A stretch of 59,296 nucleotides of DNA from an uncultured Lentisphaeria bacterium (GTDB lineage Bacteria > Verrucomicrobiota > Lentisphaeria > Victivallales > UBA1829), in NCBI GenBank assembly GCA_949282305.1, contig CASDPB010000066.1, positions 1 to 59,296 of the forward strand, written 5' to 3'. The notes below the pieces were generated by a model. It did not search any database. It had not been told where the DNA came from and saw only the letters and a list, made by a program, of their open reading frames with translations. Below, one piece after another: positions 13,118-56,051 of the stretch. Within the stretch, counting starts at the first letter, position 1. Each line of letters starts with the position of its first letter. A program made the position numbers and the translations under genes.

Positions 13118-13990
13118 TCAAAGGAGCGCCTTCAGTTTCGGGAACACGCGGAGCGCATTTTCAAAAAAGACTTTGTCCTGATGCTCTTCGGGGATGATGC
13201 TCCTGATGACTCCGATATAGGAGGAAATATGAATCAGCGGCCAGTCGGAGCCGTACATCAGCTTGCTGTAGTCGTCCATGTAAGCCATCCATGTCTTGAG
13301 ATGTTCCAGATAGCCGTGATTTTTCCGGCAGTATTCCTCTGCCGTGAAATATCCTTCGGCAAGACCGGAGAGATCAATGAAGACGTTGTCGTTTTTAATT
13401 GCGACTTCCGTGGCGTCGATGATCCAGGGGCTTCCGTAGTGGGCAATGACAAACCGGACGTCCGGAAACGCGACTGCGACTTCATCCACTTCGAGCGGAT
13501 GGGAATATTTCAGGAGTCCGCGCGGGGAAGCCGTGTCGCCGGAATGAAAGACCACCGGCACATCGTATTTTCGCGCAAGCTCGTAAAACGGGTAGTTCCG
13601 CTGATCTCCCGGATAAATTGACTCGTAGCCGGGGTAGAGCTTGATTCCTACGCATTGCCTGGTGCGGAGCAGTTTCTCATATTCCTCAAGCGTCGCCTCC
13701 ATCTTTCCCGGATGCAGTTTTGTGCCGTTGACCCCGGCACAGTAGGCGATGCAGGATGGCTGGTTGTAGTTTTCTTCGTCGAACTCCCCCGCCAGGTCGA
13801 TGATGCCCGGATAGCAGATTTCCGGATCTTCCTTCCGGCTGCGGGTGCCCATGGCGATGCCGAGGACAATATTGTTTTCCTTGAACGTCTGTACTAAATG
13901 TTCCGATGTGTTTTCATGTTTTGCGGCGAGTGCAACCTGACAGAATCCCGGATTGTCGGAAAAGTGCATGTGCGCATCAATGATTTTCAT
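13118..13990 (-). CDS. Amidohydrolase family protein (TIM-barrel metal-dependent hydrolase)
   Basis: A 290-residue protein of the amidohydrolase_2 group. It begins MKIIDAHMHFSDN, giving the H-x-H metal motif on strand 1, followed by VVFHSGDT, FVIAHYGSPW and a late aspartate in LMYGSDWPL. These are the expected metal ligands and proton acceptor. The substrate cannot be read from the sequence. It resembles the second amidohydrolase at 27224-28078 in fold and start, but their contexts differ. It converges on rnc, with only 60 bases between the two stop codons. Confidence 0.8.
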   Translation of the reverse strand: MKIIDAHMHFSDNPGFCQVALAAKHENTSEHLVQTFKENNIVLGIAMGTRSRKEDPEICYPGIIDLAGEFDEENYNQPSCIAYCAGVNGTKLHPGKMEATLEEYEKLLRTRQCVGIKLYPGYESIYPGDQRNYPFYELARKYDVPVVFHSGDTASPRGLLKYSHPLEVDEVAVAFPDVRFVIAHYGSPWIIDATEVAIKNDNVFIDLSGLAEGYFTAEEYCRKNHGYLEHLKTWMAYMDDYSKLMYGSDWPLIHISSYIGVIRSIIPEEHQDKVFFENALRVFPKLKALL

Positions 13991-14917: not shown

Positions 14918-16069
14918 TTACGCCTGGTATCTGAGTTCGCCTTCGACGAAGACGGATTTCACCTTGAAGTTGCTGTTCAGGATGACAATGTCCGCCAGAT
15001 AACCCGGAGCGAGTCTGCCGATCTTTTCGAGTCCGAGAGCCTGCGCCTGGTTCCAGGAGGTGGTCTTGATGAGGTCTTTCAGCGGAAGCCCCGTGATTTC
15101 ATAGACATTGCGGAGGGCATCGCAGATCTGGAGCGTGCTTCCCGCGAGGGCTCCGTTGGAGGCAAGCCTTGCCGCGCCGTCCTTCACGATCACGGCGAGC
15201 CCGCCGAGCGAGGATTCCCCGTCAGGCATTCCCGCCGCGCGCATGGCGTCCGTGATGAGCTGAATCTTCTCGACGTTTTTCAGGGAGAAGATCAGAGAGA
15301 TCATGTCCGGGCAGATGTGGAGCTTGTCGCAGATCAGTTCGATGAAGACGTCTTTGCAGGCGAATCCGGCGCCGACCAGTCCGATGTCGCGATGATGAAG
15401 CGGCGTCATCTGATTGCAGAAATGCGTCAGATTCTGGAGTCCGTGCTCGTGGGCTGCCTGGAACTGCTTGAATGTCGCCGCGCTGTGAACGCAGGACGGC
15501 GTGATGCCTTCCGCAAGACATTCCGCTGCAAACTTGTCGCCTCCGGGCATTTCGACGGCATAAGAGACTTTCTTGACAGGAAAAATCTTTGCAAGGCGCC
15601 TGACCATCTCAATGTCGGGCTCTCTCACGAAATCAGGATTCTGGGCGCCGAGGCACTTCGGATTGATGAACGGTCCTTCGAGGTGAACACCCGCGAGCTT
15701 GACGCCCTTGACACCGTTCTTGACGTAATCCGCAGCCGTCCGGAGAGATTTTGCAAGCTGTTCTTCGGGGAGGGTCAGCGTTGTGGGAAGGAAGGTGGTA
15801 ACGCCTTCTTTGAGCTTGTCGATGCCGATTGTCGTCATCGCTTCATCGGTGGCGTCGCTGAAATCGACGCCGGACTTTCCGTGACAGTGGATGTCCACGA
15901 ATCCGGGGACGGTCATGTCTCCGTTGACGTCAATCACCTTGTCCGTCTGCGGCAGGGCGTCGCCTTTGGCGAAAATCTGCCTGATTGTGTTATTTTCAAC
16001 AAGGATGGAAGCGCCTTCCAGCTCCACATCCGGCGAGATGAGGTTGCAGTTTTTGAAAAGCATGTTCAT
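14918..16069 (-). CDS. nagA: N-acetylglucosamine-6-phosphate deacetylase
   Basis: Hydrolyses N-acetylglucosamine 6-phosphate to glucosamine 6-phosphate and acetate, the committed step in amino-sugar use. The 383-residue protein matches the family length. Motifs are the metal-binding DIHCHGKSGVDFSD, GVHLEGPFINPKCLGAQ with the conserved glutamate, THFCNQMTPLHHRDIGLVG with metal histidines, and the catalytic aspartate in QLITDAMRAAGMPDG. The start at 16069 has ACAGGAG upstream. The gene is monocistronic; a NagB-like gene lies 12 kb away at 28090. Confidence 0.93.
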   Translation of the reverse strand: MNMLFKNCNLISPDVELEGASILVENNTIRQIFAKGDALPQTDKVIDVNGDMTVPGFVDIHCHGKSGVDFSDATDEAMTTIGIDKLKEGVTTFLPTTLTLPEEQLAKSLRTAADYVKNGVKGVKLAGVHLEGPFINPKCLGAQNPDFVREPDIEMVRRLAKIFPVKKVSYAVEMPGGDKFAAECLAEGITPSCVHSAATFKQFQAAHEHGLQNLTHFCNQMTPLHHRDIGLVGAGFACKDVFIELICDKLHICPDMISLIFSLKNVEKIQLITDAMRAAGMPDGESSLGGLAVIVKDGAARLASNGALAGSTLQICDALRNVYEITGLPLKDLIKTTSWNQAQALGLEKIGRLAPGYLADIVILNSNFKVKSVFVEGELRYQA

Positions 16070-16102
16070 GAGATTTACTCCTGTTTGTTTTTGAACAGGC
16101 AG

Positions 16103-16131
16103 AATATAATCAAAAAATGAAACAAAGTCAA
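16103..16131 (-). promoter_or_regulatory. nagA promoter
   Basis: On the minus strand TTGACT (16126-16131), a 17-base spacer and TATATT (16103-16108) stand 34 bases before the nagA start. No clear operator palindrome is visible around it. Confidence 0.6.
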
Positions 16132-16212
16132 GCATGTTTTGCATTATTTGACAAATTCGGAGAAGGGAAAGGGCGTCCCGCACTGCTTCCCGCCGGGGAC
16201 GCCGGATGGATG

Positions 16213-21168: not shown

Positions 21169-21242
21169 TGGAGCGGGTGAAGGGAATCGAACCCTCATAC
21201 TCAGCTTGGGAAGCTGGTGCACTGCCACTGTGCTACACCCGC
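21169..21242 (-). tRNA. tRNA-Gly (anticodon CCC), CCA encoded
   Basis: On the minus strand the 7-bp acceptor stem is GCGGGTG with CACCCGC, the T arm contains GGGTTCGATTCCC, and the anticodon loop is TTCCCAA between CAGC and GCTG, giving anticodon CCC. The 3' CCA is present in the DNA (21169-21171). The first anticodon-stem pair is a C-A mismatch. The gene is 74 bases long. Confidence 0.93.
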
Positions 21243-26045: not shown

Positions 26046-27227
26046 TCAGCTTTTTTTCTGTCCGTTTGCAAAATATTCCATGAGTTCGGGACGAACCGGC
26101 GGAATATCCATCGGGATGTTGCCGCTGCGCATGGAACGGTGGGCAAGTGCTCCGGCGGCGACAGCGTTCCGCGCGGCGACCGGAGACACGACGGGCGGTC
26201 TGCCGTCGCGGACAAAATCGAAGAAGGCGTTGACGATATTCGGATCGGAACCGCCGTGCCCGCCGTCCGATGCTTTCAGATTGTAGACAATGTCCGGCTC
26301 CCTGCGGGAACCCCGCTGTGTCCAGACATGGATCTGGCAGTCGCCGAAGTCTCCGATGTTTTCCACCCGCCCATGCGTTCCGATGAATGTGTAGTTCCGC
26401 TCGGAGTCCGGCGCATACATGCACTGCTCATACGACGCCTGGACTCCGTTGTCCAGCTGCATCATCACCATGTTGTGATCTTCTACGTCCAGTTTGCCGT
26501 CCAGCCCTTTCAGTTCAAGCGGCGGCCAGCAGTCGGGCTTCCATGAAGCCTTGCGATCCGGCGCCTCTCCCTCCTTCAGGCGTCCGGTCGTGCGGTTGTA
26601 GACGGAGAGTTTACCCATTCCGATGACACGTGCCGTATAACCGCCGGCAAGCCAGTGGATTACGTCAATGTCATGTGCGCCCTTCTGGAGCAGGAGTCCG
26701 TTGCAGGTCTCTTTGCGCGCGCACCAGTGGCGGAAGTAACAGCTTCCGTAGTTGATGAAGTGACGCACCCAGACACACTGGATTTCGCCGATGGCGCCGG
26801 AGTCGATGACCTCTTTCATCTTGAGGATGGACGGCACATAGCGCATGTTATGACCGACGAACAGCTTTGACCCCGTCCGGAAGGCAGTTTCCAGAATCCG
26901 GTCGCACCCTTCGATGGAAAGCGCCATCGGCTTTTCCAGATAGACCGCTTTTCCCGCCTCAAGCGCGGCGACGGCGATTTCCTCATGATACTGGTCGCGA
27001 ACCATTACGCATACGGCATCGACGTCCGGATCGGCGATCAGCTCCTGATACGTCGCATAGAGATGCGCTTTCGAGTCCGGATGTTCCCTGCGGTAAAGTT
27101 CCAGCATGGCGGGATTGCGGTCGCAGACCGCCGTCATCTCCGCTTTGTCCCGCGGATAATTGCATTCGATGAGTGCTGCGCGCAGGGAAAAATCCGCCCC
27201 GATCAGCCCGATACCGGTTTTCTTCAT
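26046..27227 (-). CDS. Gfo/Idh/MocA-family oxidoreductase
   Basis: A 393-residue NAD(P)-dependent sugar or sugar-derivative dehydrogenase. The N-terminal Rossmann domain (about 1-125) ends in the hallmark AVYLEKPMALSIEGCD, whose EKP lysine is catalytic. The C-terminal alpha/beta domain follows, with QKGAHDIDVIHWLAGGYTAR holding the conserved D-x-x-x-W/H pattern. The dinucleotide loop is atypical: GLIGADFSLRAAL in place of G-x-G-x-x-G. The gene overlaps the end of the amidohydrolase gene by 4 bases and is third in an operon after the NagB-like gene. Confidence 0.88.
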   Translation of the reverse strand: MKKTGIGLIGADFSLRAALIECNYPRDKAEMTAVCDRNPAMLELYRREHPDSKAHLYATYQELIADPDVDAVCVMVRDQYHEEIAVAALEAGKAVYLEKPMALSIEGCDRILETAFRTGSKLFVGHNMRYVPSILKMKEVIDSGAIGEIQCVWVRHFINYGSCYFRHWCARKETCNGLLLQKGAHDIDVIHWLAGGYTARVIGMGKLSVYNRTTGRLKEGEAPDRKASWKPDCWPPLELKGLDGKLDVEDHNMVMMQLDNGVQASYEQCMYAPDSERNYTFIGTHGRVENIGDFGDCQIHVWTQRGSRREPDIVYNLKASDGGHGGSDPNIVNAFFDFVRDGRPPVVSPVAARNAVAAGALAHRSMRSGNIPMDIPPVRPELMEYFANGQKKS

Positions 27228-28078
27228 ATTCTGTTTCCTTGTTTTTGCATGAACTGACTGCGGAGCGCGATGGCGTTTCCCCGGAAAAACTTCTCCTGCT
27301 CTTCCGGCAGTCCCCAGCGGTAATACAAACCGCCGACGAACTCGAAGTAGAGTTTCCAGAATTCCGCCAGGCGCAGGGCGCGTTCATTGGACGCCTCAAT
27401 GCCGTAGAACTCGTCGGTTGCGAAATGGAGCTTGTCATTGAAGAACCGCTCCGTTCCGTCGTGAGCCCGGCGGTCCAGCAGCTCCCGAAGCGTATCCACG
27501 GAGCGCAGATAGCCGCTGACGTCGCTGCAGATGTTCCTGTAATAATACAGATTGTGCTGCACTTCCTCCAGAAAGGGATACCCCTGGTGGCCGCCGATGA
27601 TCTGCAGTTCCGGGAACGCCTCCGCGATTCCGGCAAGATGGATCGGGCGCATGTTTTCCGGTCCGAAGGCATGAGGACGCGCCGGATTGTATGGCGTTCC
27701 CTTTGCGATCAGTCCTGTGTGGAAGAGAATCGGCATGCCGAGTTCCTGCGCCCGTTCATAGAGCGGATAATATTTTTCGTGATTGTAAGGCTGAAGCTGC
27801 TTGTAGGGCTTCAGCCCGACGAATCCCATGTCGCGGAGACGGTTGATCTGATCCGGCGTGTCGCGGTCGAGGTCGAGAAACCCGAACGCAAGGAAAAAGC
27901 CGTCGTAGCGCCTGACCGTTTCCAGAAGCTCCTTCTGTTCCGCGAAACGGACGTCCCCGAGGCTGCCCACGCCGGAAAGATCCATCAGCCAGATCTGTTC
28001 AAACACGCCGGATTCGACAATTCTGTCGATCCCCGCCGCGTTGTGCGTCAGATGCGCATGTGCGTCAATGAATTTCAT
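27224..28078 (-). CDS. Amidohydrolase family protein (amidohydrolase_2)
   Basis: A 284-residue TIM-barrel hydrolase starting MKFIDAHAHLTHNAAGIDRI, with the H-x-H metal pair. Later ligands lie in MPILFHTGLIAKG, LQIIGGHQGYPFLEEV and, near the end, KLHFATDEFYG with a candidate catalytic aspartate. It sits between a NagB-like gene (11-base gap) and a Gfo/Idh oxidoreductase (4-base overlap), so it likely acts on a sugar lactone, a deamination product or an N-acyl group of an unusual sugar. The frame is open far upstream into the nagB-like gene, but the ATG at 28078 gives the family start. Confidence 0.8.
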   Translation of the reverse strand: MKFIDAHAHLTHNAAGIDRIVESGVFEQIWLMDLSGVGSLGDVRFAEQKELLETVRRYDGFFLAFGFLDLDRDTPDQINRLRDMGFVGLKPYKQLQPYNHEKYYPLYERAQELGMPILFHTGLIAKGTPYNPARPHAFGPENMRPIHLAGIAEAFPELQIIGGHQGYPFLEEVQHNLYYYRNICSDVSGYLRSVDTLRELLDRRAHDGTERFFNDKLHFATDEFYGIEASNERALRLAEFWKLYFEFVGGLYYRWGLPEEQEKFFRGNAIALRSQFMQKQGNRI

Positions 28079-28089
28079 CGGATGCTCCG

Positions 28090-28941
28090 TCAGATGTTGA
28101 ACTTCGGCGCCGTGGCGGTCTTGAGGTCGGTGACGATCAGCAGGTTTTTGTGGTTTCTCGCATGTGTGACCGGATAGTCGTCGCCGGGCTGTCCGAGCGC
28201 GGCGATGCGGATGATCGTATTTGCCCAGAAGAATTCCTGCGATTCGTTGCGGGTCATGAGCAGCATGCGGCGTGCGGCGAGGCACTGTTTCATTCCCATT
28301 GTGATTGCGCGGCGCGGGAAGTTTTCAAGGTTTCCGCCGACTCCCTTGTGGCGTGTCGAATCAATGGTGCGTGTGAACTCGTTGATCGTGAGGATGCGGG
28401 GATCGGAATCCCTGACGCCCGGCTCCGGTTCATTGAATGCGACGTGCCCGTGGATGCCGATTCCGCCGTAGCAGACTTCGATTCCGCCGGCGTCTTCAAT
28501 CATTTTCGGGAGATCCTTCAGGTTTTCCGGCGTGGGGAAGATGATCTGATCCGCCGGCATGAGAAGGTCGGGGCGGATGCGGTTGAAGAGCAGAGGCCCG
28601 ATCTGCCCGCGGAAACTCAGCGGATGCGTTGCCGGAATGAGCTGATCGTTGTCGTCGCAGTATTCATCCATGAAGAAAAAGCGGACGTTTTTCAGGTTGA
28701 GGTTCAGATAGTTGATCTTTTCCGCCATGATGCGGTAGGGCTGCGTCGGACCGACCGGCATGATGAATGATACAATTTTATCACCCTCGGCGGCTTTCCG
28801 GAACTCCCCGACCATTTCATCCGCGAGAAATTCGTAGACTTCGTCCAGAGTCTCCATGACCTTGAGCTGACCTCTGGATTCTCTGACAAGCTCTTCCACG
28901 GACAGACTCAAAATTCTTCTTACTTCTTCGGAACGGTTCAT
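28090..28941 (-). CDS. Glucosamine-6-phosphate deaminase-like protein (NagB family)
   Basis: A 283-residue sugar-phosphate isomerase/deaminase. The family motifs are FFFMDEYCDD, whose D92 corresponds to NagB Asp72, and GGIGIHGHVAFNEPEPG (about 159-175). In E. coli NagB this motif reads G-G-V-G-N-D-G-H-I-A-F-N-E-P. Here the aspartate (Asp141) is replaced by H164, while the following H166 and E171 are kept. It also carries a 30-residue N-terminal extension compared with NagB. The chemistry may be modified or the substrate a different amino sugar. It is first in an operon divergent from an AraC regulator. Confidence 0.8.
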   Translation of the reverse strand: MNRSEEVRRILSLSVEELVRESRGQLKVMETLDEVYEFLADEMVGEFRKAAEGDKIVSFIMPVGPTQPYRIMAEKINYLNLNLKNVRFFFMDEYCDDNDQLIPATHPLSFRGQIGPLLFNRIRPDLLMPADQIIFPTPENLKDLPKMIEDAGGIEVCYGGIGIHGHVAFNEPEPGVRDSDPRILTINEFTRTIDSTRHKGVGGNLENFPRRAITMGMKQCLAARRMLLMTRNESQEFFWANTIIRIAALGQPGDDYPVTHARNHKNLLIVTDLKTATAPKFNI

Positions 28942-29078
28942 ACTGTTGCCCTTTCATTTGTTTTTTTTGCAAGTGCATGAGTTCTCCTGTTGCAATTATA
29001 TTATAGGCGTATATTTTAAGAAGAGAAATAATATTTTTGACGCATTTTTATCACAAATGATGCAAAAGGTGGAAAAAC
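28942..29078. promoter_or_regulatory. Divergent control region between nagB-like operon and AraC gene
   Basis: A 137-base A/T-rich gap. The minus strand has TATAAT at 29000-29005 with only a poor -35, as expected of an activator-dependent promoter. The plus strand has TTGCAA (28990-28995), a 16-base spacer and TATTTT (29012-29017). The neighbouring AraC protein is the natural candidate to bind here. Confidence 0.45.
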
Positions 29079-29903
29079 ATGGGAAAAATCAAGATCATCA
29101 GCCGTCCGGACCCGAATAAACTGCCGGATTTCCAGCTTCCGCTGCATGTGCGTTCCGTAGGGTGCAATGAAAGTGACTGCGGATGGAGTGAATGTGTCGC
29201 CGGCGGGAAAAAGCTCTTCGTGCAACTCTTCTGGACACTGAAGGGCAGCGGGGAGATCACGCTTCCGGACCGTAAAATCATTACGCGGGAGGGAGAGGTT
29301 TTTTATCATCTGCCCGGGGAGGAGCACCGGCACAGGACGCTGGGGAAACAATGGCACTATTACTGGTTCACGTTTGACGGCGCGGGCGCGGCGGATTTTA
29401 TCACGTCCTACGGCTACGGACGCGATTCCCGTTATGCCGGAGAATGTCCGGTCAAACTCTTTCTGGAACTGGAACTCCTGCTCCGGGAACGCACGCCGTA
29501 TGCGCAGAGACATGCCGTATCCGTCGCGGCGGAGATTCTGGCGCTTGCCGGAGGCAGGTTCAGCGACAAGGCAAGCCGGGATGTGGTCAGGCGGTTCATT
29601 GATATTGCGCAGGAATCCGCCTCGGATATCCGGCTGAGCGCCACCGGTCTGGCGAAGGAGCTTGGCGTGCACCGGACGACGCTCAACCGCATCTTCCTCC
29701 AGGAAATGGGGATGACGCCCGGCAGCTACCTGCAGGAACAGCGGATTCAACATGCGCTGTCCCTGCTGCGGGAGACGGAACTTCCGATCAAGGCGATTGC
29801 CTCGGAATGCGGGATGCCGCACACCAGCTATTTCTGCCGCCTGATACGGAAAGCGACGGGCTTTACTCCCGCCGGTTATCGGAAACAGGGCGGTGTGGAT
29901 TGA
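29079..29903 (+). CDS. AraC-family transcriptional regulator
   Basis: A 274-residue regulator. The cupin-like N-terminal domain (about 30-110) includes GSGEITLPDRKIITREGEVF and YHLPGEEHRHRTLGKQWHYY. The C-terminal AraC domain (about 170-270) has LSATGLAKELGVHRTTLNRI and LPIKAIASECGMPHTSYFCR, the two helix-turn-helix units. AAAGGTGG lies just before the ATG. Its divergent position next to the NagB-like, amidohydrolase and oxidoreductase operon suggests it controls that operon in response to a sugar. Confidence 0.9.
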   Translation: MGKIKIISRPDPNKLPDFQLPLHVRSVGCNESDCGWSECVAGGKKLFVQLFWTLKGSGEITLPDRKIITREGEVFYHLPGEEHRHRTLGKQWHYYWFTFDGAGAADFITSYGYGRDSRYAGECPVKLFLELELLLRERTPYAQRHAVSVAAEILALAGGRFSDKASRDVVRRFIDIAQESASDIRLSATGLAKELGVHRTTLNRIFLQEMGMTPGSYLQEQRIQHALSLLRETELPIKAIASECGMPHTSYFCRLIRKATGFTPAGYRKQGGVD

Positions 29904-35533: not shown

Positions 35534-35569
35534 AAGTTCAATAAAATAATTTTGAAAAGGAGAAAAGCC

Positions 35570-36352
35570 ATGAAGAAAATCAAGACGGCGCCGGACATCT
35601 TTTCGGGAAAAAAGTGTTCCGGCGAAGAAAAAAAGCGGAACGGAGACTGTGGAAAATTCACATTGATCGAGCTCCTCATTGTAATTGCTGTCGTTGCAAT
35701 TCTGGCCGCATTGCTACTGCCTGCGCTGAATCAGGCAAAAATGACGGCACAGTCCATCTCCTGCGTCAATAATCTGGGGCAGTTCGGGAAGGTTTCGCAG
35801 ATGTATATGGCGGATTACAACGACTGGGCGCTGACCGCCTACATGAAGGGCAGCGGATACTGGTATAAAATGCTGACGGATACTTACGGTATAACGGAAA
35901 AGACATATCACTGTCCGTCGGAACCGTTTTTTGAGTATTCGACAGCCGGGATTAATTACGGAATCAACACCCATACATTTGGGGTGTCCAAGGACGACAA
36001 CCAGAAATTGCTGCCGCAAAAAGGCAGCAGAATATCCATGTTCGGACGGGATTCCCGTCTGGTTATGTTCATTGATACTCCGCCGATGAGTCCCGATTAC
36101 AAAGGTCGGATACGGCATACATCCGGAAGTCCGACGCAGTTCGCGCCGACTTCGCCGGTTGCTCCGTATGAGTCCTCCACTGCGTGGTATCCATCGTATG
36201 TGCGACACAGAAAGCGTGCCAATACCGCGATGTTTGACGGTCATGTCCAGTCACTGAGCTATCATGATCTGCGCTACCGGCGCAATGAGTTTTTCAATCC
36301 CTGTCTGAAACAGTATGTTGACAGCACGTTGCAGATTCGGGAACTGAATTGA
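35570..36352 (+). CDS. Pseudopilin-type protein with pilin-like N-terminal helix
   Basis: A 260-residue protein. An unusually long basic leader of about 34 residues precedes the type IV pilin-like segment [20 protein letters not shown] (residues 36-55), with the conserved glutamate at +5. The residue before F is lysine, not the glycine that prepilin peptidase normally needs, although G-K-F is near. After the helix come [20 protein letters not shown] and a C-terminal [20 protein letters not shown], typical of the abundant DUF1559/GspG-like proteins of Lentisphaerota and Planctomycetota. AAGGAGA precedes the ATG at 35570. No secretion ATPase or prepilin peptidase genes are nearby. It is likely cotranscribed with the hydrolase after it. 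Confidence 0.85.
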
Positions 36353-42033: not shown

Positions 42034-42968
42034 TGAAACAGCTTATTGCAGTCTTGTTGTCGCTTCCTCTTGTGCTTTCCGCGGGAATCGTTTCCGAAAC
42101 GGCGGACACGATTTCCTATCGGCAGAGCAACGGCGAGACCGTTACGGTGCATAAACTTCCGAAGCGTCCGGTGGTGCTTCATATCTCCCTGACGGGAATG
42201 TGGTATGCGGCGGGGGGAAAGGCAATCGCCAGACCTCATGCGCCGAGACTTCATGTTCTGCCGGAGGAGGCGAGAAATCTTCCCGATGTCGGTGACTTCT
42301 ACAATCCGAATCTGGAAAAACTGCTTGCTCTCAAGCCGGATCTTGTTCTGCTTCACAGCAAACGCGGGAAGCATTGGGAGGTTCAGAAACTCCTGCGTTC
42401 CGCCGGAGTGGAAAGTGTCTGCGTCGATTACACGAATTACGACGATTTCCTGAATCTGCTTGACTTTTTCAGCCGTTTGAACGGCAATCCGGAAGAAGCG
42501 GAAGCCGTGCGCAGGAAAATTACCGCGGAGGTGGATGTACTCTGTGCGGAAACGGCAAAGCTCAACCCGGTCACGTTCATCAGCATGATCGTTTCCGGCA
42601 CCGGTTTTCTTTCGGAGACTCCGCGCGGAAACACGGCGAACATGGCGACGCGCCTCGGCGGGCGAAATCTGGTTCCTCCCGCTTCTGTCGTCCGTGTGAA
42701 ATACAGCATGGAACAGCTGCTGATGTCCGATCCCGACGTGATTTTCCTGCTTTGCGCCGGTTCAAACAATAAACTTTCATCAAAAGTGCGCGCAATCCTT
42801 GACAAACGCCCCGACTGGCGTAATTTGAAGGCGGTAAGGAATCACCGTGTTTACGTGCTGGACGCCGAAAGTTATCTCTATCTGCCCGGCAGACGGTATC
42901 CCGAGGCGTTTCTCGGGCTTGCGAAATGCCTTTACCCGGAAAAGGACTGGGAGAAGATCGTGAAATGA
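42030..42968 (+). CDS. btuF: ABC transporter substrate-binding protein, BtuF-like (cobalamin/corrinoid)
   Basis: A 312-residue periplasmic binding protein with a signal peptide ([19 protein letters not shown]). The two-lobe class III fold is marked by [18 protein letters not shown] at the start, a long linking helix around [20 protein letters not shown], and the C-terminal [20 protein letters not shown]. The riboswitch and the following permease and ATPase genes identify it as the corrinoid binder rather than a siderophore binder. It has no lipobox cysteine, so it should be soluble. It overlaps the pseudopilin gene and btuC by 4 bases each. Confidence 0.88.
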
Positions 42969-43975
42969 TCGACGGGGACGTAAGACAGCGTCCGGGATTC
43001 CGGATTGTAATTTTGCTGCTGCTGGCGCTTTTTGCCGTTTCGGCTTTGCTCGGTGCGATGCGCTGCGGTTCCCGTGAACTGTCTTATGCCCGGATCATTG
43101 AAACTCTCTGGAACGCGGACGGGGGAACGGATTTCCTGATTCTGTATTACATCCGTCTTCCCCGGGTGGTTCTGGGGGCGATGGTGGGGGCGAGCCTTGC
43201 CTTGTCCGGCGCGATTCTTCAGGGAGTCATGCGCAATCCGCTGGCGTCGCCGGGAATCATCGGCGTTTCCGCCGGAGGCGCGCTGACTGCCGTTGCGATT
43301 ATGCTTCTTCTGCCTCAGTTTGCGTCGCTTCTGGTGCCGTCTGCCTTCTGCGGCGCACTGGCGACCGCCGTTCTTGTGTATGCGCTTGCGTGGAAAGGCG
43401 GCATCCAGCCGGTGCGCCTGATTCTTTCCGGCGTGGCGGTCGCGAGCATGTTGAGCGCCCTTGTCAGCGTCCTGCTGCTGTTCAATTCCGAGCGCGCCGT
43501 GGTGATTCTGGATTTCATGATCGGGAGTCTTTCCGCGAAGTCATGGACACAGATCCAGCTTGTCTGGCCGTATATGGCGGGCGGCGTGATCGTGTCGCTT
43601 CTGCTGGCGCAGACGTTGAACATTCTGGTGCTTGGCGATGAAGTCGCAACGGGGCTCGGGCTCCGCGTGGAGCTGGTGCGTGTGATTCTGCTTGCCCTGA
43701 GCGCGCTTCTTGCGGCGGCGTCCGTGAGCGTGGTCGGGCTTCTCGGTTTCGTGGGGCTGATCGCGCCTCATATCGTGCGGCTCATGATCGGTTCCGACTA
43801 CCGTTATCTGCTGCCCGGTTCCGTCCTGTTCGGCGCGGGGATGCTGGTATGGTGCGATACGGTCGGGCGGATGGTGATGGACCCCGTGGAGCTTCCCGTC
43901 GGGATCATTCTCGCGCTTCTCGGTCCCCCTTTCTTTCTGTATCTGCTGAGAAGGAGCGGCGGGCATGAAACTTGA
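42965..43975 (+). CDS. btuC: Cobalamin ABC transporter permease (FecCD/BtuC family)
   Basis: A 336-residue inner-membrane permease with about nine or ten helices. Motifs are IRLPRVVLGAMVGASLALSG and GVMRNPLASPGIIGVSAGGA, both typical of BtuC/FecCD, and the ATPase-coupling region VGLLGFVGLIAPHIVRLMIG near the C terminus. The ATG at 42965 overlaps the btuF stop; the frame from 42926 is less likely. It pairs with the ATPase encoded next, whose start lies inside this gene (11-base overlap). Confidence 0.92.
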   Translation: MIDGDVRQRPGFRIVILLLLALFAVSALLGAMRCGSRELSYARIIETLWNADGGTDFLILYYIRLPRVVLGAMVGASLALSGAILQGVMRNPLASPGIIGVSAGGALTAVAIMLLLPQFASLLVPSAFCGALATAVLVYALAWKGGIQPVRLILSGVAVASMLSALVSVLLLFNSERAVVILDFMIGSLSAKSWTQIQLVWPYMAGGVIVSLLLAQTLNILVLGDEVATGLGLRVELVRVILLALSALLAAASVSVVGLLGFVGLIAPHIVRLMIGSDYRYLLPGSVLFGAGMLVWCDTVGRMVMDPVELPVGIILALLGPPFFLYLLRRSGGHET

Positions 43976-44759
43976 CATTTCCGAACTGACCGCGGGATAC
44001 GGTTCCAATCACGTGATCGAGCGTCTGAACCTTTCCATTGCCTCCGGCGAGATCGTGACGCTCATCGGGACGAACGGATGCGGAAAATCGACGCTTCTGA
44101 AAACGATGGCGCGCATTCTCAAACCCTGCGCAGGAACCGTTCTGCTTGAGTCGAAAAGTGTGCACTCCATGAATACCGGGCAGCTGGCGAAACAGCTTGC
44201 CGTTCTGCCGCAGATTCATGCCGCGCCGGAGGATGTGACCGTGCGTCAGCTGATAGAATACGGGCGTTTCCCGCATCACGGCGCATGGCGCATGGCGTCT
44301 TCGTGGGATCGCATGGTGGTGGACGATATTCTGAAAATGACGCGCCTGGAGGAGCTGGCTTCCCGCAAAGTCGTGAGTCTTTCCGGCGGAGAGCGCCAGC
44401 GCGCATGGATTGCGATGACTCTGGCGCAGGAGCCGAAGGTGCTTCTGCTGGATGAGCCGACGACCTTTCTGGACGTATGCTGTCAGTTCGAGGTGGTCGA
44501 GCTGGTGCGGAAGCTGAACCGCAAACTCGGAATCACCGTCGTGATGGTGCTCCATGACCTGAATCTCGCCGCCCGCTGTTCGGATCGTCTTGCCGCGATC
44601 CGCGACCGCCGCATTCTGCACGTCGGAACGCCGCGCGAGATTATCACGCCGGAGATTCTGCGCGGGATTTTCAATATTGAATCCGAAGTGATTTACGGCA
44701 GGGACGGCATTCCGTTTTTCATTCCTGTCGGTTCCTGCTGCGGGGAGGTGAAGTCATGA
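43965..44759 (+). CDS. btuD: Cobalamin ABC transporter ATP-binding protein
   Basis: A 264-residue ATPase that drives corrinoid import. Walker A is GTNGCGKS at 35-42, the Q-loop is in LAVLPQIH, the signature is LSGGERQR, Walker B is VLLLDEPTTFLD and the switch histidine is in VVMVLHDLNLA. The FecE/BtuD subgroup is supported by the neighbours. It ends with a 4-base overlap on the cobD-cobQ fusion gene. Confidence 0.93.
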   Translation: MKLDISELTAGYGSNHVIERLNLSIASGEIVTLIGTNGCGKSTLLKTMARILKPCAGTVLLESKSVHSMNTGQLAKQLAVLPQIHAAPEDVTVRQLIEYGRFPHHGAWRMASSWDRMVVDDILKMTRLEELASRKVVSLSGGERQRAWIAMTLAQEPKVLLLDEPTTFLDVCCQFEVVELVRKLNRKLGITVVMVLHDLNLAARCSDRLAAIRDRRILHVGTPREIITPEILRGIFNIESEVIYGRDGIPFFIPVGSCCGEVKS

Positions 44760-47332
44760 GCATTGACCACGGCGGCAATCTGGAAAAACTGGCGGCGGAG
44801 GCGCATTGCGCCCCGGATGAAATACTGGATTTCAGCGTGAACCTGAATCCGTGCGGACAGCCGGAAGGCTTGTTTCAGGCATGGTTCCGTGCGTTCGATC
44901 ATGCCGCGCCATATCCGGAACCGTATGCGGAAAGCGTCTGCCGGATGATCGCGCGGAAACTTTCGTGTCCGGCGGACTGCGTTCTTGCCGGAAACGGTTC
45001 CGGCGAACTGCTGGATCTGCTTCCGCGCGCGTTCGATTCCCGCCGCGCGGTGATCGTGACGCCCGGTTATCTGGAATATGAGGAATCCTGCCGGAAAGCC
45101 GGGCTTCCCGTGACTCATTTCGCGTTGAAGGAGGAGGAAGATTTTCAGCTCGACATGAAGGCGCTGGACTCCTTTCTGCTGTCCGGCGACCTTGTGATGC
45201 TGGGCAATCCCGTGAATCCCGTCGGCGTCGCATCGGAACCGGAGAGACTTCTTGCGCTGATCCGGGAGCGTGGGGACTGCAATTTCATCATAGACGAGGC
45301 TTTTGCCGATTTCTGCCCGGATTGTTCCCTGAAAAATGCGATTCTCCCGAATCTCGCCGTGACGCATTCCATGACGAAGTTCTATTCTCTCGCCGGTGTG
45401 CGCATGGGGTATGTGCTTGCGGACGCCTCCGTGATCGCCCGTCTGAAAGAGCTTCAGCCGTGCTGGAGTCTCGGTTCCGCCGGATGCGAACTGATGAAGT
45501 TCCTTTTCTCTCTGGATGATGCGTTCGCGGAAACGAGCCGGAGGGAGACGGAGCGTCTGCGCAGTGAATTCTCCGCGCGGCTTGCCCGGATTCCCGGCGT
45601 GAAAGTGTATCCCTCCGCCGCCAATTACCTGCTTGTGCGTCTGCCCCGTCCGCAGCTTGCGGACCGTCTGCTGAAGGAGCATCATATTGCGGTGAGGAAC
45701 TGCGGCGGCTATCCCGGTTTGAGCGCCGGTCATATCCGGGTTGCCGTCAGGAAGGAGTCGGAAAATCGTCTTTTGCTTGCCGCGCTGGAAGACATGTGCG
45801 GGCGGAGCGGGGACGTTGCGCCGGAGATTTCCGGAAAATCCGGCAGAAGCGGCGGGAAAATGTGCCGCCGGACTCCCGCCCTGATGCTTCAGGGAACGTG
45901 TTCCAACGCGGGAAAGAGCATTCTTGCGGCGGCGTTCTGCCGGATTATGCTTCAGGACGGAATCCGCGTGGCGCCGTTCAAGGCGCAGAATATGGCGCTG
46001 AATTCGTTTGTCACGATGGACGGCGGGGAGATGGGACGCGCGCAGACAGTTCAGGCAGAGGCATGCCGTCTTGATCCCGACGTCCGCATGAATCCGATTC
46101 TCCTGAAACCGAACAGCGATACCGGCAGTCAGGTGATTGTATGCGGAAAACCGGTCGGCAATATGCGCGTGCGCGAGTATTACGCCCATAAAAAGGAACT
46201 CTGGGAGAAGGTGAAGGAGAGTTATGATTCTCTGTGTGCCTCGTATCAGGCGATTGTGCTGGAAGGCGCGGGAAGTCCCGGGGAGATCAATCTCAAAAGA
46301 AACGATATTGTGAATATGCGCATGGCACAGTATGCGCAGAGTCCCGTCCTGCTGGTCGGCGATATTGACCGCGGCGGTGTTTACGCTTCATTCATCGGGA
46401 CTTACGCGACGCTGGAAAATTGGGAGCGCGAACTGCTGAAGGGGTTTCTGGTGAACAAGTTCCGCGGCGATCCGACGCTGCTGGACGATGCGCACCGCGA
46501 TGTCCTCGCCTATACGGGGCGTCCGGTGATGGGCGTGATCGACTGGCAGCGGGATCTGGGGCTGCCGGAGGAGGATTCCGTGAACTTTTCGCTGATCCGT
46601 CCCGCTCCGAAACATGCGGAAACTCTGGACGCGGTTCTGATTCATCTGGGGCATATCGCGAATTTCACGGACTTCGTTCCTTTTGAGCTGGAGCCGGATG
46701 TGACGGTCCGCAAGATTGACTCCGTCGCGGAATTCGGTTCGCCGGATCTGGTGATTGTGCCTGGGAGCAAAGGAACCGCGGCGGATATGTATGAACTGGA
46801 AAAACGGGGACTCGCGCGGAAAATACGCGAAGCCGTAAGGAACGGGGCATGGTTTGTCGGAATTTGCGGCGGACTCCAGATCGCGGGGGAAAGACTGCTG
46901 GATCCTCTTGCTGTGGAGTCGGACTGCCCCGATGCGGCGTGTCTGGGGCTTCTGCCGCTGGTGACGGAGATGATGCCGGAAAAGACTCTGCGGCAGACTC
47001 GCGCCGAATGTTTCGGAATGTCCGTTTCCGGGTATGAGATTCATCACGGGCAGACACGCATGACTGCGCCGGTGGAGTCCGTTTCGATTGCGGACAACGG
47101 GACTGTCGCCGGATATTCCACCGGCAGAATTTTCACCAGCTACCTGCACGGCGTGTTTGACGATGACGTGTTCCGGCGGAATTTCATCGACCGGGTGCGC
47201 GTTTCCCTCGGCTGGGAACCGCTCGGCGGAGTGACGGCGCATTATGGAATCGAAGATTCGCTGAACCGTCTTGCCGACCACGTCCGCTCCCGTGTCGACA
47301 TGAAGAAAATCTATCAGATGATGGGGCAGTGA
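44756..47332 (+). CDS. Fusion of threonine-phosphate decarboxylase (CobD) and cobyric acid synthase (CobQ/CbiP)
   Basis: One 858-residue chain with two enzymes. Residues 1-350 are a PLP-dependent decarboxylase making (R)-1-amino-2-propanol O-2-phosphate, with K208 in THSMTKFYSLAGVRMGYV as the cofactor lysine and IIDEAFADFCPD as the PLP aspartate region. Residues 351-371 are a Gly/Ser/Lys-rich linker. Residues 372-858 are cobyric acid synthase, which amidates the b, d, e and g side chains. They start LMLQGTCSNAGKSILAAAFC (P-loop) and include FKAQNMALNSFVTMDGGEMG. A class I glutamine amidotransferase part has the nucleophile C704 in GICGGLQIAG and H798 in YLHGVFDD. Both halves are full length. 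CbiB uses both products. Confidence 0.93.
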   Translation: MSIDHGGNLEKLAAEAHCAPDEILDFSVNLNPCGQPEGLFQAWFRAFDHAAPYPEPYAESVCRMIARKLSCPADCVLAGNGSGELLDLLPRAFDSRRAVIVTPGYLEYEESCRKAGLPVTHFALKEEEDFQLDMKALDSFLLSGDLVMLGNPVNPVGVASEPERLLALIRERGDCNFIIDEAFADFCPDCSLKNAILPNLAVTHSMTKFYSLAGVRMGYVLADASVIARLKELQPCWSLGSAGCELMKFLFSLDDAFAETSRRETERLRSEFSARLARIPGVKVYPSAANYLLVRLPRPQLADRLLKEHHIAVRNCGGYPGLSAGHIRVAVRKESENRLLLAALEDMCGRSGDVAPEISGKSGRSGGKMCRRTPALMLQGTCSNAGKSILAAAFCRIMLQDGIRVAPFKAQNMALNSFVTMDGGEMGRAQTVQAEACRLDPDVRMNPILLKPNSDTGSQVIVCGKPVGNMRVREYYAHKKELWEKVKESYDSLCASYQAIVLEGAGSPGEINLKRNDIVNMRMAQYAQSPVLLVGDIDRGGVYASFIGTYATLENWERELLKGFLVNKFRGDPTLLDDAHRDVLAYTGRPVMGVIDWQRDLGLPEEDSVNFSLIRPAPKHAETLDAVLIHLGHIANFTDFVPFELEPDVTVRKIDSVAEFGSPDLVIVPGSKGTAADMYELEKRGLARKIREAVRNGAWFVGICGGLQIAGERLLDPLAVESDCPDAACLGLLPLVTEMMPEKTLRQTRAECFGMSVSGYEIHHGQTRMTAPVESVSIADNGTVAGYSTGRIFTSYLHGVFDDDVFRRNFIDRVRVSLGWEPLGGVTAHYGIEDSLNRLADHVRSRVDMKKIYQMMGQ

Positions 47333-47333
47333 A

Positions 47334-47855
47334 ATGAACGATCTGGACAGCGGTTTGATTCTCAACATCACGGGGAACGGCAAAGGAAAGACCACCGGCG
47401 CGCTTGGAATTGTGATCCGCGCACTCGGCTGGGAGTGGCGCGTTGCCGTGATTCAGTTCATGAAGAGTTCGCGCGAAACGGGCGAACTTCAATTTTTCCG
47501 CCGCTTTTTTCCCGACATGATCTTTGAGCAGTATGGACTCGGACTCACGAGCCGTCCGGGGGATCATGCCGGAGCCGCCCGCGGAGGATGGGAACGGGCG
47601 AAGTGTCTGCTGGCGGATTTCGAGGGGGAACTGCTGGTGCTGGACGAACTCAACGTCGCACTGTCGCACGGTTTTCTTGACGTGGCGGAGGTCGTGGATG
47701 CGCTTCGGGGCAAACGGCATGGCCTGAATGTGGTCGTGACCGGGCACGGGGCGCCGGAGGAACTGCTTGAAATCAGCGACATGGTGTCGGACATTGCGGA
47801 GATCAAACATCAATACCGGCGCGGAATACCCGCGGGAAAGGGGCTGGACTTCTGA
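47334..47855 (+). CDS. cobO: Cob(I)yrinic acid a,c-diamide adenosyltransferase (CobA/CobO/BtuR type)
   Basis: Transfers the 5'-deoxyadenosyl group of ATP to Co(I) corrinoids. The 173-residue protein has the modified P-loop GNGKGKTTGALG typical of CobA, then AVIQFMKSSRETGELQFF and a Walker B-like LLVLDELNVALSHGFLD. The C-terminal VTGHGAPEELLEISDMVSDI is also diagnostic. It starts 1 base after the fusion gene and its stop overlaps the next start (TGATG). Confidence 0.93.
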   Translation: MNDLDSGLILNITGNGKGKTTGALGIVIRALGWEWRVAVIQFMKSSRETGELQFFRRFFPDMIFEQYGLGLTSRPGDHAGAARGGWERAKCLLADFEGELLVLDELNVALSHGFLDVAEVVDALRGKRHGLNVVVTGHGAPEELLEISDMVSDIAEIKHQYRRGIPAGKGLDF

Positions 47856-48526
47856 TGAACCAACTGTTTGATGCGATTACATGGAATCTGAGCGGAAGCG
47901 GAATCGAACAGGAGAGTTTCCGCAGAATTGATGCGGAAGCGGCTCCGGAAATCAGGGCGCGTTTCTCCGACGCCGAATGGCATGTCGCGCGGCGCCTGGT
48001 GCACACGACCGCGGATTTTACGATTCTGGAACAGCTCGAATTCCGGAACAACGCCGTGGAGGCGGGGCTTGCCGCGTTGCGGCGGGGGGCTTTGATCTAT
48101 TCGGACTCCAATATGATTAAATCGGGGCTTTCCATACCGAAGCTGAAACGGTTTCATGACTCCTATGCGCGTGATTCGATTCTCTGTTCCGTTGCCGATC
48201 CCGCTGTTGCGGAACTGGCGGCGAAGGAGAACATTACGCGCGCCCTGGCTTCGGTACGGCTTCATGCGGATGAACTGGACGGAGCAATTTTCCTCTGCGG
48301 AAACGCGCCGCTTGCGCTTGCCGGGGTCGTGAGGCTGGCTGTTGAACGCGGCATCCGCCCGGCGCTGATTGTCGGAATGCCGGTCGGTTTTGTGAATGTC
48401 GTTGAATCAAAGGAACTTCTGAAACTGGTGGATGTTCCGTATATTGTTCTGCACGGACGGCGTGGAGGCAGTCCTTTGGCTGTTGCCGCCCTGCATGGAA
48501 TCATGGAAAACGGGCTGTATGGATAA
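47855..48526 (+). CDS. cbiC: Cobalt-precorrin-8 methylmutase
   Basis: Moves the C11 methyl group to C12, giving cobyrinate. The 223-residue protein has the catalytic histidine H50 in RRLVHTTADF, the segment ALIYSDSNMIKSGLSIPKLK, and the C-terminal GMPVGFVNVVESKELLKLVD and LHGRRGGSPLAVAALHGIM, all conserved in CbiC/CobH. It overlaps cbiD by 8 bases. Confidence 0.94.
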   Translation: MNQLFDAITWNLSGSGIEQESFRRIDAEAAPEIRARFSDAEWHVARRLVHTTADFTILEQLEFRNNAVEAGLAALRRGALIYSDSNMIKSGLSIPKLKRFHDSYARDSILCSVADPAVAELAAKENITRALASVRLHADELDGAIFLCGNAPLALAGVVRLAVERGIRPALIVGMPVGFVNVVESKELLKLVDVPYIVLHGRRGGSPLAVAALHGIMENGLYG

Positions 48527-49595
48527 CAGGAATCTTCGATGCGGGTATACGACCGGAAGCGCCGTCGCGGCGGCGGCCTGCGCTGCATACCGGTGCCGGG
48601 TGTCCGGGGAAAAGCCGGAGCGGGTGCGGCTGACTTTGCCGGACGGTTCTTTTCTGTCTGTGCCCGTGTCGGAAGTGTCGGAAAAACATGCGGTTGTGAT
48701 AAAGGACGGCGGCGACGACCCCGATGTGACGACCGGTGCGCATATTGTCGTAAGGCTTCAGGAACATGAGGATGCCGATCCGGCGGAATATGCGGAACGC
48801 TGCGGATTCGGGACTCTGTTTCTCCGCGGAGGACGGGGTGTCGGCAGGGTGACGCGCGGCGGGCTGAATGTGCCGGTCGGGCGCTGCGCAATCAATCCGG
48901 GGCCGCGGCGCATGATCGTGGAGAATATGGCGCTTGCCGGATTCGGAAAAAAAGAGGAGGAGCTTGTCATTTTGATTGAAGTCCCGGAGGGGGAGGCGCT
49001 TGCTGAAAAGACCCTGAATCCGGCGCTCGGCATCATCGGCGGGATTTCGATACTGGGCAATTCGGGAATCGTGTATCCGTATTCCAATGCGGCGTATGCG
49101 GCGAGCATTGCGCTGCAGCTCAGGAGTATTGCGGCGGAGGGCGGAACCTGTGCCGCGCTGGCGACGGGAGGACGGTCCGCGGCGGCTGTCGCCCGTGATT
49201 TTCCCTTTCTGCGGGAGCGGGAAATCGTGCGGATTGCGGATTTCATTTATGTTGCGGTGAATGCGGCGAAAAATGCGCGTCTGAACCGCTTGATTGTCGG
49301 ATGTATGCCGGGTAAATTATTCAAATATGCGTGCGGGGAAAAATATACCCATGCGCATAAAACGAAACTGATGTTGCCGCGTCTGCGCGAGTTCACGGCG
49401 GCACTGCCTGCGGAGCTGCCGCTGGAGTCGATGGAGTCCATGGGAGAGCTGGCGACGAAAGTTCCGGCGGAACGTTACCGGAAGATATTGCATGATTGTC
49501 ATGAAAAGGCGTCGGAGCGTCTTTCCGCATGGGGCGGGGAGGATATGAAAGTGGAGATCGCGCTTTACAACGATCAGGGGGAGAGGCTGATATGA
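48519..49595 (+). CDS. cbiD: Cobalt-precorrin-5B C1-methyltransferase
   Basis: Adds the C1 methyl group in the anaerobic corrin pathway. The 358-residue protein has the family opening RCGYTTGSAVAAAACAAY, then GDDPDVTTGAHIVV and VGRVTRGGLNVPVGRCAINP, and a late LIVGCMPGKLFKYAC. CbiD marks the pathway as the oxygen-independent, early-cobalt route. The ATG at 48519 lies inside the end of cbiC; the open frame further upstream is not supported. Confidence 0.94.
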   Translation: MDNRNLRCGYTTGSAVAAAACAAYRCRVSGEKPERVRLTLPDGSFLSVPVSEVSEKHAVVIKDGGDDPDVTTGAHIVVRLQEHEDADPAEYAERCGFGTLFLRGGRGVGRVTRGGLNVPVGRCAINPGPRRMIVENMALAGFGKKEEELVILIEVPEGEALAEKTLNPALGIIGGISILGNSGIVYPYSNAAYAASIALQLRSIAAEGGTCAALATGGRSAAAVARDFPFLREREIVRIADFIYVAVNAAKNARLNRLIVGCMPGKLFKYACGEKYTHAHKTKLMLPRLREFTAALPAELPLESMESMGELATKVPAERYRKILHDCHEKASERLSAWGGEDMKVEIALYNDQGERLI

Positions 49596-50806
49596 AGGAT
49601 GAATGGGTGATTGATGTTGCGGGTGTCTCCGCGGGCGGATGGTCTGCGGAAACGGAAAAACTTGTCACTGGCGCGGAGCTGATTGTCGCCGGACAGCGCA
49701 TTCTGGACATGATCCCCCGCGGGGATGTGGAAAAAATTCCGCTGGATGCGTCGGCTTTGCGGAATCTGGAAGGGATTCTTGCGCGGGCAAAGGAGAAGCG
49801 GACGCTCTTTCTGGCTTCGGGCGATCCGCTTTACAACGGGATCGGCGGCACCCTGCGCCGTCATCTGCCGGGGGAGCGCCTGCGGATTCATCCGAATCCG
49901 ACCGCGTTTCAGGAACTTTTTGCGAAACTGGCGCTTCCGTGGGAGAATGCGGCATTGTTCAGCGTGCATGGGAAGAAAACTCTGCCGTGGCGGCGAATTC
50001 TCTGTTCAAAGCTGGCAGTGATTTACTGCGATGCGGAACGTTCCGCAAAAGTGATTGCCGCTGAATTGATTGCAAAATATCCTGCCTGTGCGTCCCGCAG
50101 GGCTGTCGCCGGATGTGACATCGGCATGGAATCGGAGTTCATACGTTCTGCTTCTCTTGCGGAGATCGCGGAGGATTCCGGGGCGGACCGTTCCCTTTCG
50201 ATTCTGGTTCTGCTGGAAGACCGCGCTCTGCCGCCGCTGACACTGGGGCTTGACGACGGATGTTATGAACATGCCGGGAATATGATTACGCATCCCGAGG
50301 TGCGGGCGGTCGTGCTTTCAAAGCTGCGTCTGCACGGCGGGGTGATGTGGGACGTCGGCGCCGGAAGCGGTTCCGTGGGGCTGGAAGCCGCCGGGCTGTG
50401 TCCTTCGCTTTCCGTCTATGCCGTGGAAAAAAACGCGGATCGCGCGGGACAGCTTCGCCGCAATGCGGAGCGGGAGTCGCCGGCAGAATTTCACCTTTGC
50501 GAAGGAACGTTTTCGGATTTGGAGAAAGAGCTTCCCGATCCGGATTTCGTGTTTGTCGGCGGCGGAGGCGCGGAACTGGAATCCATTTTGAACAGAGCGT
50601 TCGGGCGTCTGAATCCGGGCGGCGTCATGGCGGCGACTGCGGTCATGCCGGAAAGCTGCTGTGTTCTGACGCAGACACTGAAAGAGTTCCGGCGCGAACT
50701 GCTGGTATTGAATCTGGCACGCGCGCTTCCGCTGGGAGACGGAACCTGTTATAAAGCCGAGAATCCGATTACGCTTGCGGTGTTCTCGAAGAAAGGAGAA
50801 AAATGA
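49592..50806 (+). CDS. cbiET: Fused cobalt-precorrin-7 C5-methyltransferase/C15-methyltransferase (decarboxylating)
   Basis: A 404-residue two-domain methyltransferase, like CobL. The CbiE half (about 1-200) is a tetrapyrrole methylase with FLASGDPLYNGIGGTLRRHL. The CbiT half (about 205-404) is a class I methyltransferase with the SAM loop WDVGAGSGSVGLEAAGL at about 252-268, the acidic AVEKNADRAGQLRRNA and PDFVFVGGGGAELESIL. It adds methyl groups at C5 and C15 and removes the C12 acetate carboxyl. It overlaps cbiD and cbiFG by 4 bases each. Confidence 0.93.
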   Translation: MKDEWVIDVAGVSAGGWSAETEKLVTGAELIVAGQRILDMIPRGDVEKIPLDASALRNLEGILARAKEKRTLFLASGDPLYNGIGGTLRRHLPGERLRIHPNPTAFQELFAKLALPWENAALFSVHGKKTLPWRRILCSKLAVIYCDAERSAKVIAAELIAKYPACASRRAVAGCDIGMESEFIRSASLAEIAEDSGADRSLSILVLLEDRALPPLTLGLDDGCYEHAGNMITHPEVRAVVLSKLRLHGGVMWDVGAGSGSVGLEAAGLCPSLSVYAVEKNADRAGQLRRNAERESPAEFHLCEGTFSDLEKELPDPDFVFVGGGGAELESILNRAFGRLNPGGVMAATAVMPESCCVLTQTLKEFRRELLVLNLARALPLGDGTCYKAENPITLAVFSKKGEK

Positions 50807-52599: not shown

Positions 52600-52626
52600 C
52601 GGGAACAGGTTTTCAGGGAGGAGCCA

Positions 52627-56048: not shown

Positions 56049-56051
56049 AAA

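Follow-up and report, generated by a model that had tools for sequence, protein, structure and literature searches.

Which sugar is processed by an operon of three enzymes for which no established pathway was found? The question is raised by a locus in a 59,296-nucleotide stretch of DNA (here the window; contig CASDPB010000066.1 of assembly GCA_949282305.1), which is contig C66 of the 4.36 Mb, 96% complete genome of an uncultured Lentisphaeria bacterium. Three reverse-strand genes, NAG (NagB-like; 28,090–28,941, 283 amino acids), AMI (amidohydrolase; 27,224–28,078, 284 amino acids from the ATG at 28,078) and GFO (Gfo/Idh protein; 26,046–27,227, 393 amino acids), face a forward-strand gene for an AraC-family regulator, ARA (29,079–29,903, 274 amino acids, with PF12833 and AraC_binding domains). 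Eleven bases separate NAG from AMI, and AMI and GFO overlap by four (27,224–27,227); the table of open reading frames (ORFs) also holds a longer, GTG-initiated form of AMI reaching 28,285. The gene calls confirm the tight, co-directional packing opposite an AraC gene that an earlier note on this DNA had described. The three-gene unit contains no kinase, phosphotransferase system (PTS) or aldolase. It is a real operon, and the note's description of a catabolic operon outside known pathways holds, no established pathway having been found for it. Searches of open-access literature, judged from listings, show no paper on an operon of this kind and none on the catabolism of a 6-sulfonated amino sugar, and a term search of the main texts of PMC13219744, PMC11659671 and PMC13372026 returns no mention of Lentisphaerae. 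We tentatively propose, at less than even confidence, that the operon serves the AraC-controlled intracellular salvage of an N-acetylhexosamine (HexNAc) glycoside by a glycosidase, a deacetylase and a deaminase-isomerase. The salvaged N-acetylhexosamine is best read as one whose acid group at C6 is modified or absent.

The firmest molecular finding is a change in the phosphate site of NAG. The protein matches no Pfam family at E ≤ 0.001 and scores 73.1 bits against the NagB model TIGR00502 (cut-off 236.9), which makes it NagB-like but far under every cut-off; its best sequence match to a NagB in the PDB has an E value of 4.8e-12. The AlphaFold2 model (predicted local distance difference test score, pLDDT, 91) is nearest to the NagB structure 2bkv (VIA Z 27.1, root-mean-square deviation 2.2, 232 aligned residues), and its first 29 structural neighbors are NagB-type or 6-phosphogluconolactonase-type entries. 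A FastTree phylogeny separates the window clade NAG1 (support 0.97) from the clades NAG1′ (0.69) and NAG2 (1.0), and joins NAG1 with NAG1′ at 1.0. We aligned 37 NAG1, 7 NAG1′ and 8 NAG2 sequences, 52 together, with E. coli NagB, in which we take Thr41, Arg172 and Lys208 to form the phosphate site and Asp72, Asp141, His143 and Glu148 to be catalytic. Thr41 is replaced by Val in all 52 sequences, and Lys208 by Ala in NAG1 and NAG1′ and by His in NAG2. None of the 52 keeps Arg172 at its own column (the 37 NAG1 have Thr or Val there), and an invariant Arg stands one place further on in 25 of 25 NAG1 and NAG1′ sequences compared. The loop at positions 43–44 is shortened in every NAG1. Asp72 and His143 are retained in the whole set, Glu148 in NAG1 and NAG1′ (Asp in NAG2), and Asp141 has become His in 37 of 37 NAG1 and 7 of 7 NAG1′ and Thr in NAG2. 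The FNEP motif is common to NAG and NagB, and a P-V-G-P loop is common to NAG1 and its NAG1′ and NAG2 relatives. NAG thus resembles NagB in fold, in Asp72, His143 and Glu148 and in the FNEP motif, but departs from it in overall score, at Asp141 and in the phosphate site. Because Thr41 and Lys208 are absent from all 37 NAG1, the sugar is probably not an ordinary 6-phosphate. Arg231, Asn232 and Trp239, which are invariant, lie near the former Lys208 position as judged from sequence only. Database records of the lineage carry names such as 6-phosphogluconolactonase despite the changed phosphate site.

The unit recurs in related genomes. Scanning contigs with NAG yields 44 loci, 43 of them at 72–93% identity and one (L077, Anaerolineae) at 46%, the identities being those of the best segment, in some cases a partial one. 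The nearest named relatives are Lentisphaeria/Victivallales metagenome-assembled genomes. AMI lies directly after NAG in 23 of the 44 loci and ARA is divergent in 19, with NAG, AMI and divergent ARA together in 19; the AMI and ARA counts are minima, because several contigs end near NAG (L070, L074, L076). GFO-like genes of at least 66% identity occur in 12 loci, directly after AMI in nine and at a later place of the run in L045 and L055; in L057 the gene lies upstream of AraC. In a sample of 288 genomes of the phylum, NAG is found at 67% identity or more in 13 and AMI at 52% or more in 11. The coordinates of AMI are adjacent to those of NAG in all 11, and the two NAG genomes lacking AMI are G195 and G282. 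The joint retention in 19 of 44 loci and the adjacency in 11 of 11 genomes argue that the association is more than chance, so that the neighborhood comparison called for by the earlier note finds the unit to be real. In GC-rich contigs (for example L036 and L162) our own gene calls include antisense ORFs, and the runs were therefore checked by tblastn.

AMI belongs to PF04909 (Amidohydro_2; 73.9 bits, cut-off 26.4). Residues H7, H9, K90, H120, H164 and D222 are invariant in 18 sequences and include the metal set HxH, H, H, D. The predicted model (pLDDT 86.6) is nearest to the uncharacterised structure 3irs and to other PF04909 proteins. By analogy with NagA, which holds the same slot elsewhere, AMI is proposed to be a deacetylase. 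NagA directly follows NAG in L061, L063, L072 and L078 and lies upstream of it in L056. All five of these loci are among the 21 without AMI, and the 23 loci with AMI have no NagA in the fetched flank. The NagA of L063 (263.5 bits, cut-off 225.65) overlaps NAG by one base, and L078 has a relative at 83%. In a comparison of NagA phosphate residues that leaves aside the rows of L072 and L056, the column of Arg227 holds Leu with a neighboring basic residue in L063, L078, L061 and L122, and Arg in the NagA of the window. The latter gene (14,918–16,144, reverse strand; TIGR00221, 285.7 bits, over cut-off) is located 10 kb from the operon, and another amidohydrolase-like ORF, judged by eye, lies near it (13,118–13,990, reverse strand).

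GFO contains the domains PF01408, PF22725 and PF02894, and its best NCBIfam matches, all under cut-off, are UDP-GlcNAc 3-, inositol and levoglucosan dehydrogenases. The earlier note treated it as a dehydrogenase. The GxHGG loop of the protein, the glycosidases that occupy the same slot in other loci, and the chemistry of GH109 and SqgA lead us to predict that it is more likely an NAD-dependent glycosidase than a plain dehydrogenase. GxHGG is present in all ten GFO sequences aligned, in the strict form GGHGG in five, including that of the window. The window genome has 42 Gfo/Idh matches; in the 30 that were fetched, GHGG occurs in four and GxHGG in three, all GGHGG: the window GFO, a paralogue on contig C11, and L155. 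The paralogue (L123, G000:C11, 8,835–10,121; 55% identity, GGHGG loop, L149) is located beside another AraC-like gene. GH123 is next after AMI in L043, L049 and L120 (genome G202), and in L055 a GH4 gene overlaps AMI by four bases; these assignments come from Pfam for L043, L049 and L055 and from a 58% tblastn match for L120. In L045 a DUF4838 protein, a GH20-like protein, GH123 and GFO form one run. Among the loci that lack AMI, L048 and L068 have GH20 directly after NAG, and L058 and L075 have it at a later position of the run.

According to the accessible part of PMC12269599, a GGHGG loop contains the catalytic His of GH109, and the enzyme BcGH109 acts as an alpha/beta-N-acetylgalactosaminidase; the accessible part of PMC10755693 assigns related NAD chemistry to SqgA (GH188). 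GFO was compared with both by sequence only. It shares with GH109 the Gfo/Idh fold, the EKP lysine and the GGHGG loop, but overall similarity is low (E 4.6e-16 to 2ixa, over the Rossmann part only), and half of the GFO relatives aligned have another second residue in GxHGG. With SqgA, compared by eye with the accessible text of the same paper, it shares the fold type, the EKP Lys and a His at matching spacing. GFO differs in having Gln in place of ArSqgA Glu189, and the sulfonate loop with Arg166 and Lys172 does not align clearly with it; a haloarchaeal Gfo/Idh protein is a nearer relative of SqgA. The unusual GLIGADFSL loop singled out in the earlier note is real, since the residue after GLIGA is Asp or Asn in nine close GFO sequences aligned, the window included; the distant GFO of L114 has neither residue there.

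The region between NAG and ARA contains two 15-base direct repeats 20 bp apart (29,028–29,062, reverse strand), which are likely to be an AraC operator. In 19 of the 20 regions of this kind compared (19 loci and the window), the best pair of repeats has this spacing, and 17 of the 20 beat all 300 shuffles, the others being L044, L045 and L071; the test is descriptive, as these very regions supplied the consensus and the shuffling was done on single bases. The window pattern has one match in the genome at up to three mismatches, which suggests a local regulator. A TATAAT at 29,000–29,005 (reverse strand), seen by direct reading and not picked by a consensus promoter scan, may be the −10 element of the NAG promoter.

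The gene order and its conservation, the predicted folds of NAG and AMI, the residue changes and the operator-like repeats are directly supported. The three enzyme activities, the substrate and the order of steps are inferred. The N-acetylhexosamine would be set free by GFO in an NAD-dependent sequence of 3-oxidation, elimination, hydration and reduction, a release that GH123 or GH4 would perform in other loci and GH20 in some Kiritimatiellia-type loci. AMI, standing where some other loci have NagA, would take off the acetyl group. NAG would isomerise and deaminate the resulting hexosamine, a sugar without an ordinary 6-phosphate, to a ketose and ammonia by chemistry of the Asp72/His143/Glu148 type. 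The Aga/Gam system of E. coli (AgaA, AgaS, KbaY) has the same logic of deacetylase and deaminase, but AgaS is of the SIS family (PMC3668189, in its accessible part), and the window trio is without PTS, kinase and aldolase.

Several observations weigh against this salvage proposal. Strict GGHGG is found in only half of the GFO sequences, GFO scores higher to solved Gfo/Idh dehydrogenases than to GH109, and its matches to 2ixa and 8qc2 stop short of the loop. The nearest structures of AMI are uncharacterised proteins or decarboxylases, and structure searches give no functional lead. A further 15 genomes have AMI-like matches of up to 45%, and in some of these genomes NAG has no match. The division of loci between NagA and AMI follows taxon in part, several contigs end near NAG, and the NagA of L061 is matched in two pieces. 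Arg197 and Arg231 are invariant (25 of 25) near the former phosphate site of NAG, so an acid group, phosphate included, could still bind. The window genome has four NagB matches (NAG possibly among them; best E 9.5e-78) and four NagA matches (best E 5.7e-85), and in L046 an FGGY kinase and a class II aldolase precede NAG on its strand.

Some of these points fit an ordinary phosphorylated route, which we regard as rather unlikely. AMI (or NagA) would then deacetylate a HexNAc 6-phosphate, and NAG would be a divergent deaminase of glucosamine 6-phosphate or galactosamine 6-phosphate (GalN6P). The over-cut-off NagA next to NAG in L063 and a relative at 83% in L078, the class II aldolases near NAG in L046, L058 and L063, the FGGY kinase in L046, and the two Arg residues left near the phosphate site are consistent with such a route. 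Also in its favor, no AgaS in the genome is over cut-off (TIGR02815, best 41.9 of 529.2 bits), which would create a need for a deaminase of GalN6P. Against it, neither NagB nor AgaI serves GalN6P in E. coli according to the accessible part of PMC3668189. The loss of Thr41 and Lys208, the shortened 43–44 loop in all 37 NAG1 and the lack of a sugar kinase in the window operon also argue against the route. An oxidative route, with GFO as a sugar 1-dehydrogenase, AMI as a lactonase and NAG as an isomerase of the product, is improbable. The Gfo/Idh fold and the under-cut-off dehydrogenase matches of GFO agree with it, and PF04909 includes sugar lactonases, but the GxHGG loop and the slot shared with GH123 and GH4 speak for a glycosidase, and AMI stays with NAG in loci where GFO is not found. 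The earlier note had suggested a modified amino sugar or an inositol-like compound as substrate; the former is also our best guess, whereas an inositol or amino-inositol pathway is highly improbable. It is indicated by an over-cut-off IolB (234.7, cut-off 205) and an IolC-like kinase beyond AraC in L053, and by L036 and L037, where an IolC-type kinase lies about 7 kb beyond GFO and an IolB-like start is found at the flank end. These genes are in separate transcription units in three of the 44 loci, as searched with two iol markers in the fetched flanks, and the pathway was set aside on that ground; IolE and IolD are not seen in the operon, no family search having been made for either. The run in L053 (164–8,126) contains IolB, the IolC-like kinase and a fucose-isomerase-like gene together with an FGGY kinase, an FAD oxidase-like protein, an Fe-S-like protein and an aldolase; the latter four types recur directly before NAG and AMI in L046 (1–4,501).

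A further alternative makes NAG an isomerase or deaminase of NagB fold that acts on a 6-sulfonated or 6-sulfated sugar, and GFO a glycosidase resembling SqgA (GH188), an NAD-dependent sulfoquinovosidase. We consider it unlikely, and the partners GH20, GH123 and NagA of related loci point to HexNAc, but it draws on the distant relatives of the operon. In L109, L116 and L119, NAG1′, NAG2 or a 37% relative lies beside RpiB, transketolase halves, TauE and an iron-type alcohol dehydrogenase. L114, whose contig ends there, joins a GFO (39%), AMI and NAG1′ to RpiB and the C-terminal half of a transketolase. In L115, NAG2 is accompanied by a Na/sulphate-type symporter, an aldolase, an aldehyde dehydrogenase and two subunits of a CoA ligase (Pfam). 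We take SqwI to be RpiB-like and SqwE to be TauE-like, and the match of these genes to sulfo-transketolase enzymes is by enzyme type and not by Sqw sequence. L109-type RpiB (at least 51%; the tenth match is at 43%) is present in 9 of the 288 genomes and NAG1′ or NAG2 in 10, at 110 bits or more, a line drawn after the list had been viewed. Eight genomes are common to both sets (hypergeometric 3.8e-13, uncorrected for relatedness); G029 has RpiB without NAG, and G213 and G211 have NAG without RpiB. Sulfo-transketolase gene sets comprise the transketolase SqwGH, the isomerase SqwI, the alcohol dehydrogenase SqwF and the exporter SqwE, or SqwD and SqwKL, in the accessible part of PMC12890257. Against a role in the window clade, L109-type RpiB is found at E ≤ 1e-25 in none of its 13 NAG genomes, the window genome included, with a query that is not SqwI itself. 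The sulfo-transketolase pathway was therefore set aside for the window and kept for the distant relatives. Moreover, in L158, L159, L160 and L162 the set, whole or in part, occurs without NAG and is accompanied by a fucose-isomerase-like gene (Pfam was run for L158). These are Verrucomicrobiota-type clusters with a transketolase, RpiB, an aldolase and the fucose-isomerase-like gene; that of L158 (4,722–15,699) also holds a GH116 protein (Pfam).

Two Haloarcula plasmids (L079, 12,034–19,283; L080, 8,672–16,742) carry NAG1′ and NAG2 adjacent and divergent, with matching neighbors. On the Haloarcula pelagica plasmid (L079) these are a ketohexokinase, a DhnA-type aldolase and a Gfo/Idh protein, and no other isomerase is annotated. 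The best solved matches of the Gfo/Idh protein are 8qc3 and 8qc2 (97 and 96.8 bits; the next match has 66.7), both codes being named as SqgA in the accessible text of PMC10755693. The region looks like a sulfosugar cluster. A relative on a Vibrio nigripulchritudo plasmid, 35.5% identical to the Haloarcula NAG1′, stands among nucleoside genes, which argues against a lineage confined to sulfosugars. In that region (L165, 9,004–16,230) the NagB-like gene occurs with an annotated nucleoside hydrolase, adenosylhomocysteinase, adenosine deaminase and ribokinase. We speculate, with considerable doubt, that NAG proteins form a lineage of NagB fold which has moved from phosphosugars to sugars with a C6 sulfonate or sulfate. 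The operon would then open an undescribed route for N-acetyl-6-sulfo- or 6-O-sulfated hexosamines, by way of an NAD-dependent glycosidase, a deacetylase and a deaminase-isomerase, and in the distant relatives the product would feed a sulfo-transketolase pathway or a kinase and aldolase like those of the sulfo-Embden–Meyerhof–Parnas pathway.

If the salvage proposal is right, Lentisphaeria and Kiritimatiellia would have a further route for taking nitrogen and carbon from glycans, and the dehydrogenase label of GFO would be corrected to a likely glycosidase. A NagB lineage with a changed phosphate site would be defined, and haloarchaeal and verrucomicrobial clusters where no other isomerase is seen would gain candidates for a sulfosugar isomerase.

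Elsewhere in the window, prepilin-like ORFs with an FTLIELL start are located near sugar-regulator genes (35,552–36,352); such ORFs are also present in the run after the trio in L045, L055 and L062. Inspection by eye assigns the region 42,926–57,838 to an ABC transporter and to probable genes of cobalamin synthesis. A tRNA-Gly(CCC) gene (21,169–21,242, reverse strand) is the only RNA found in the window.

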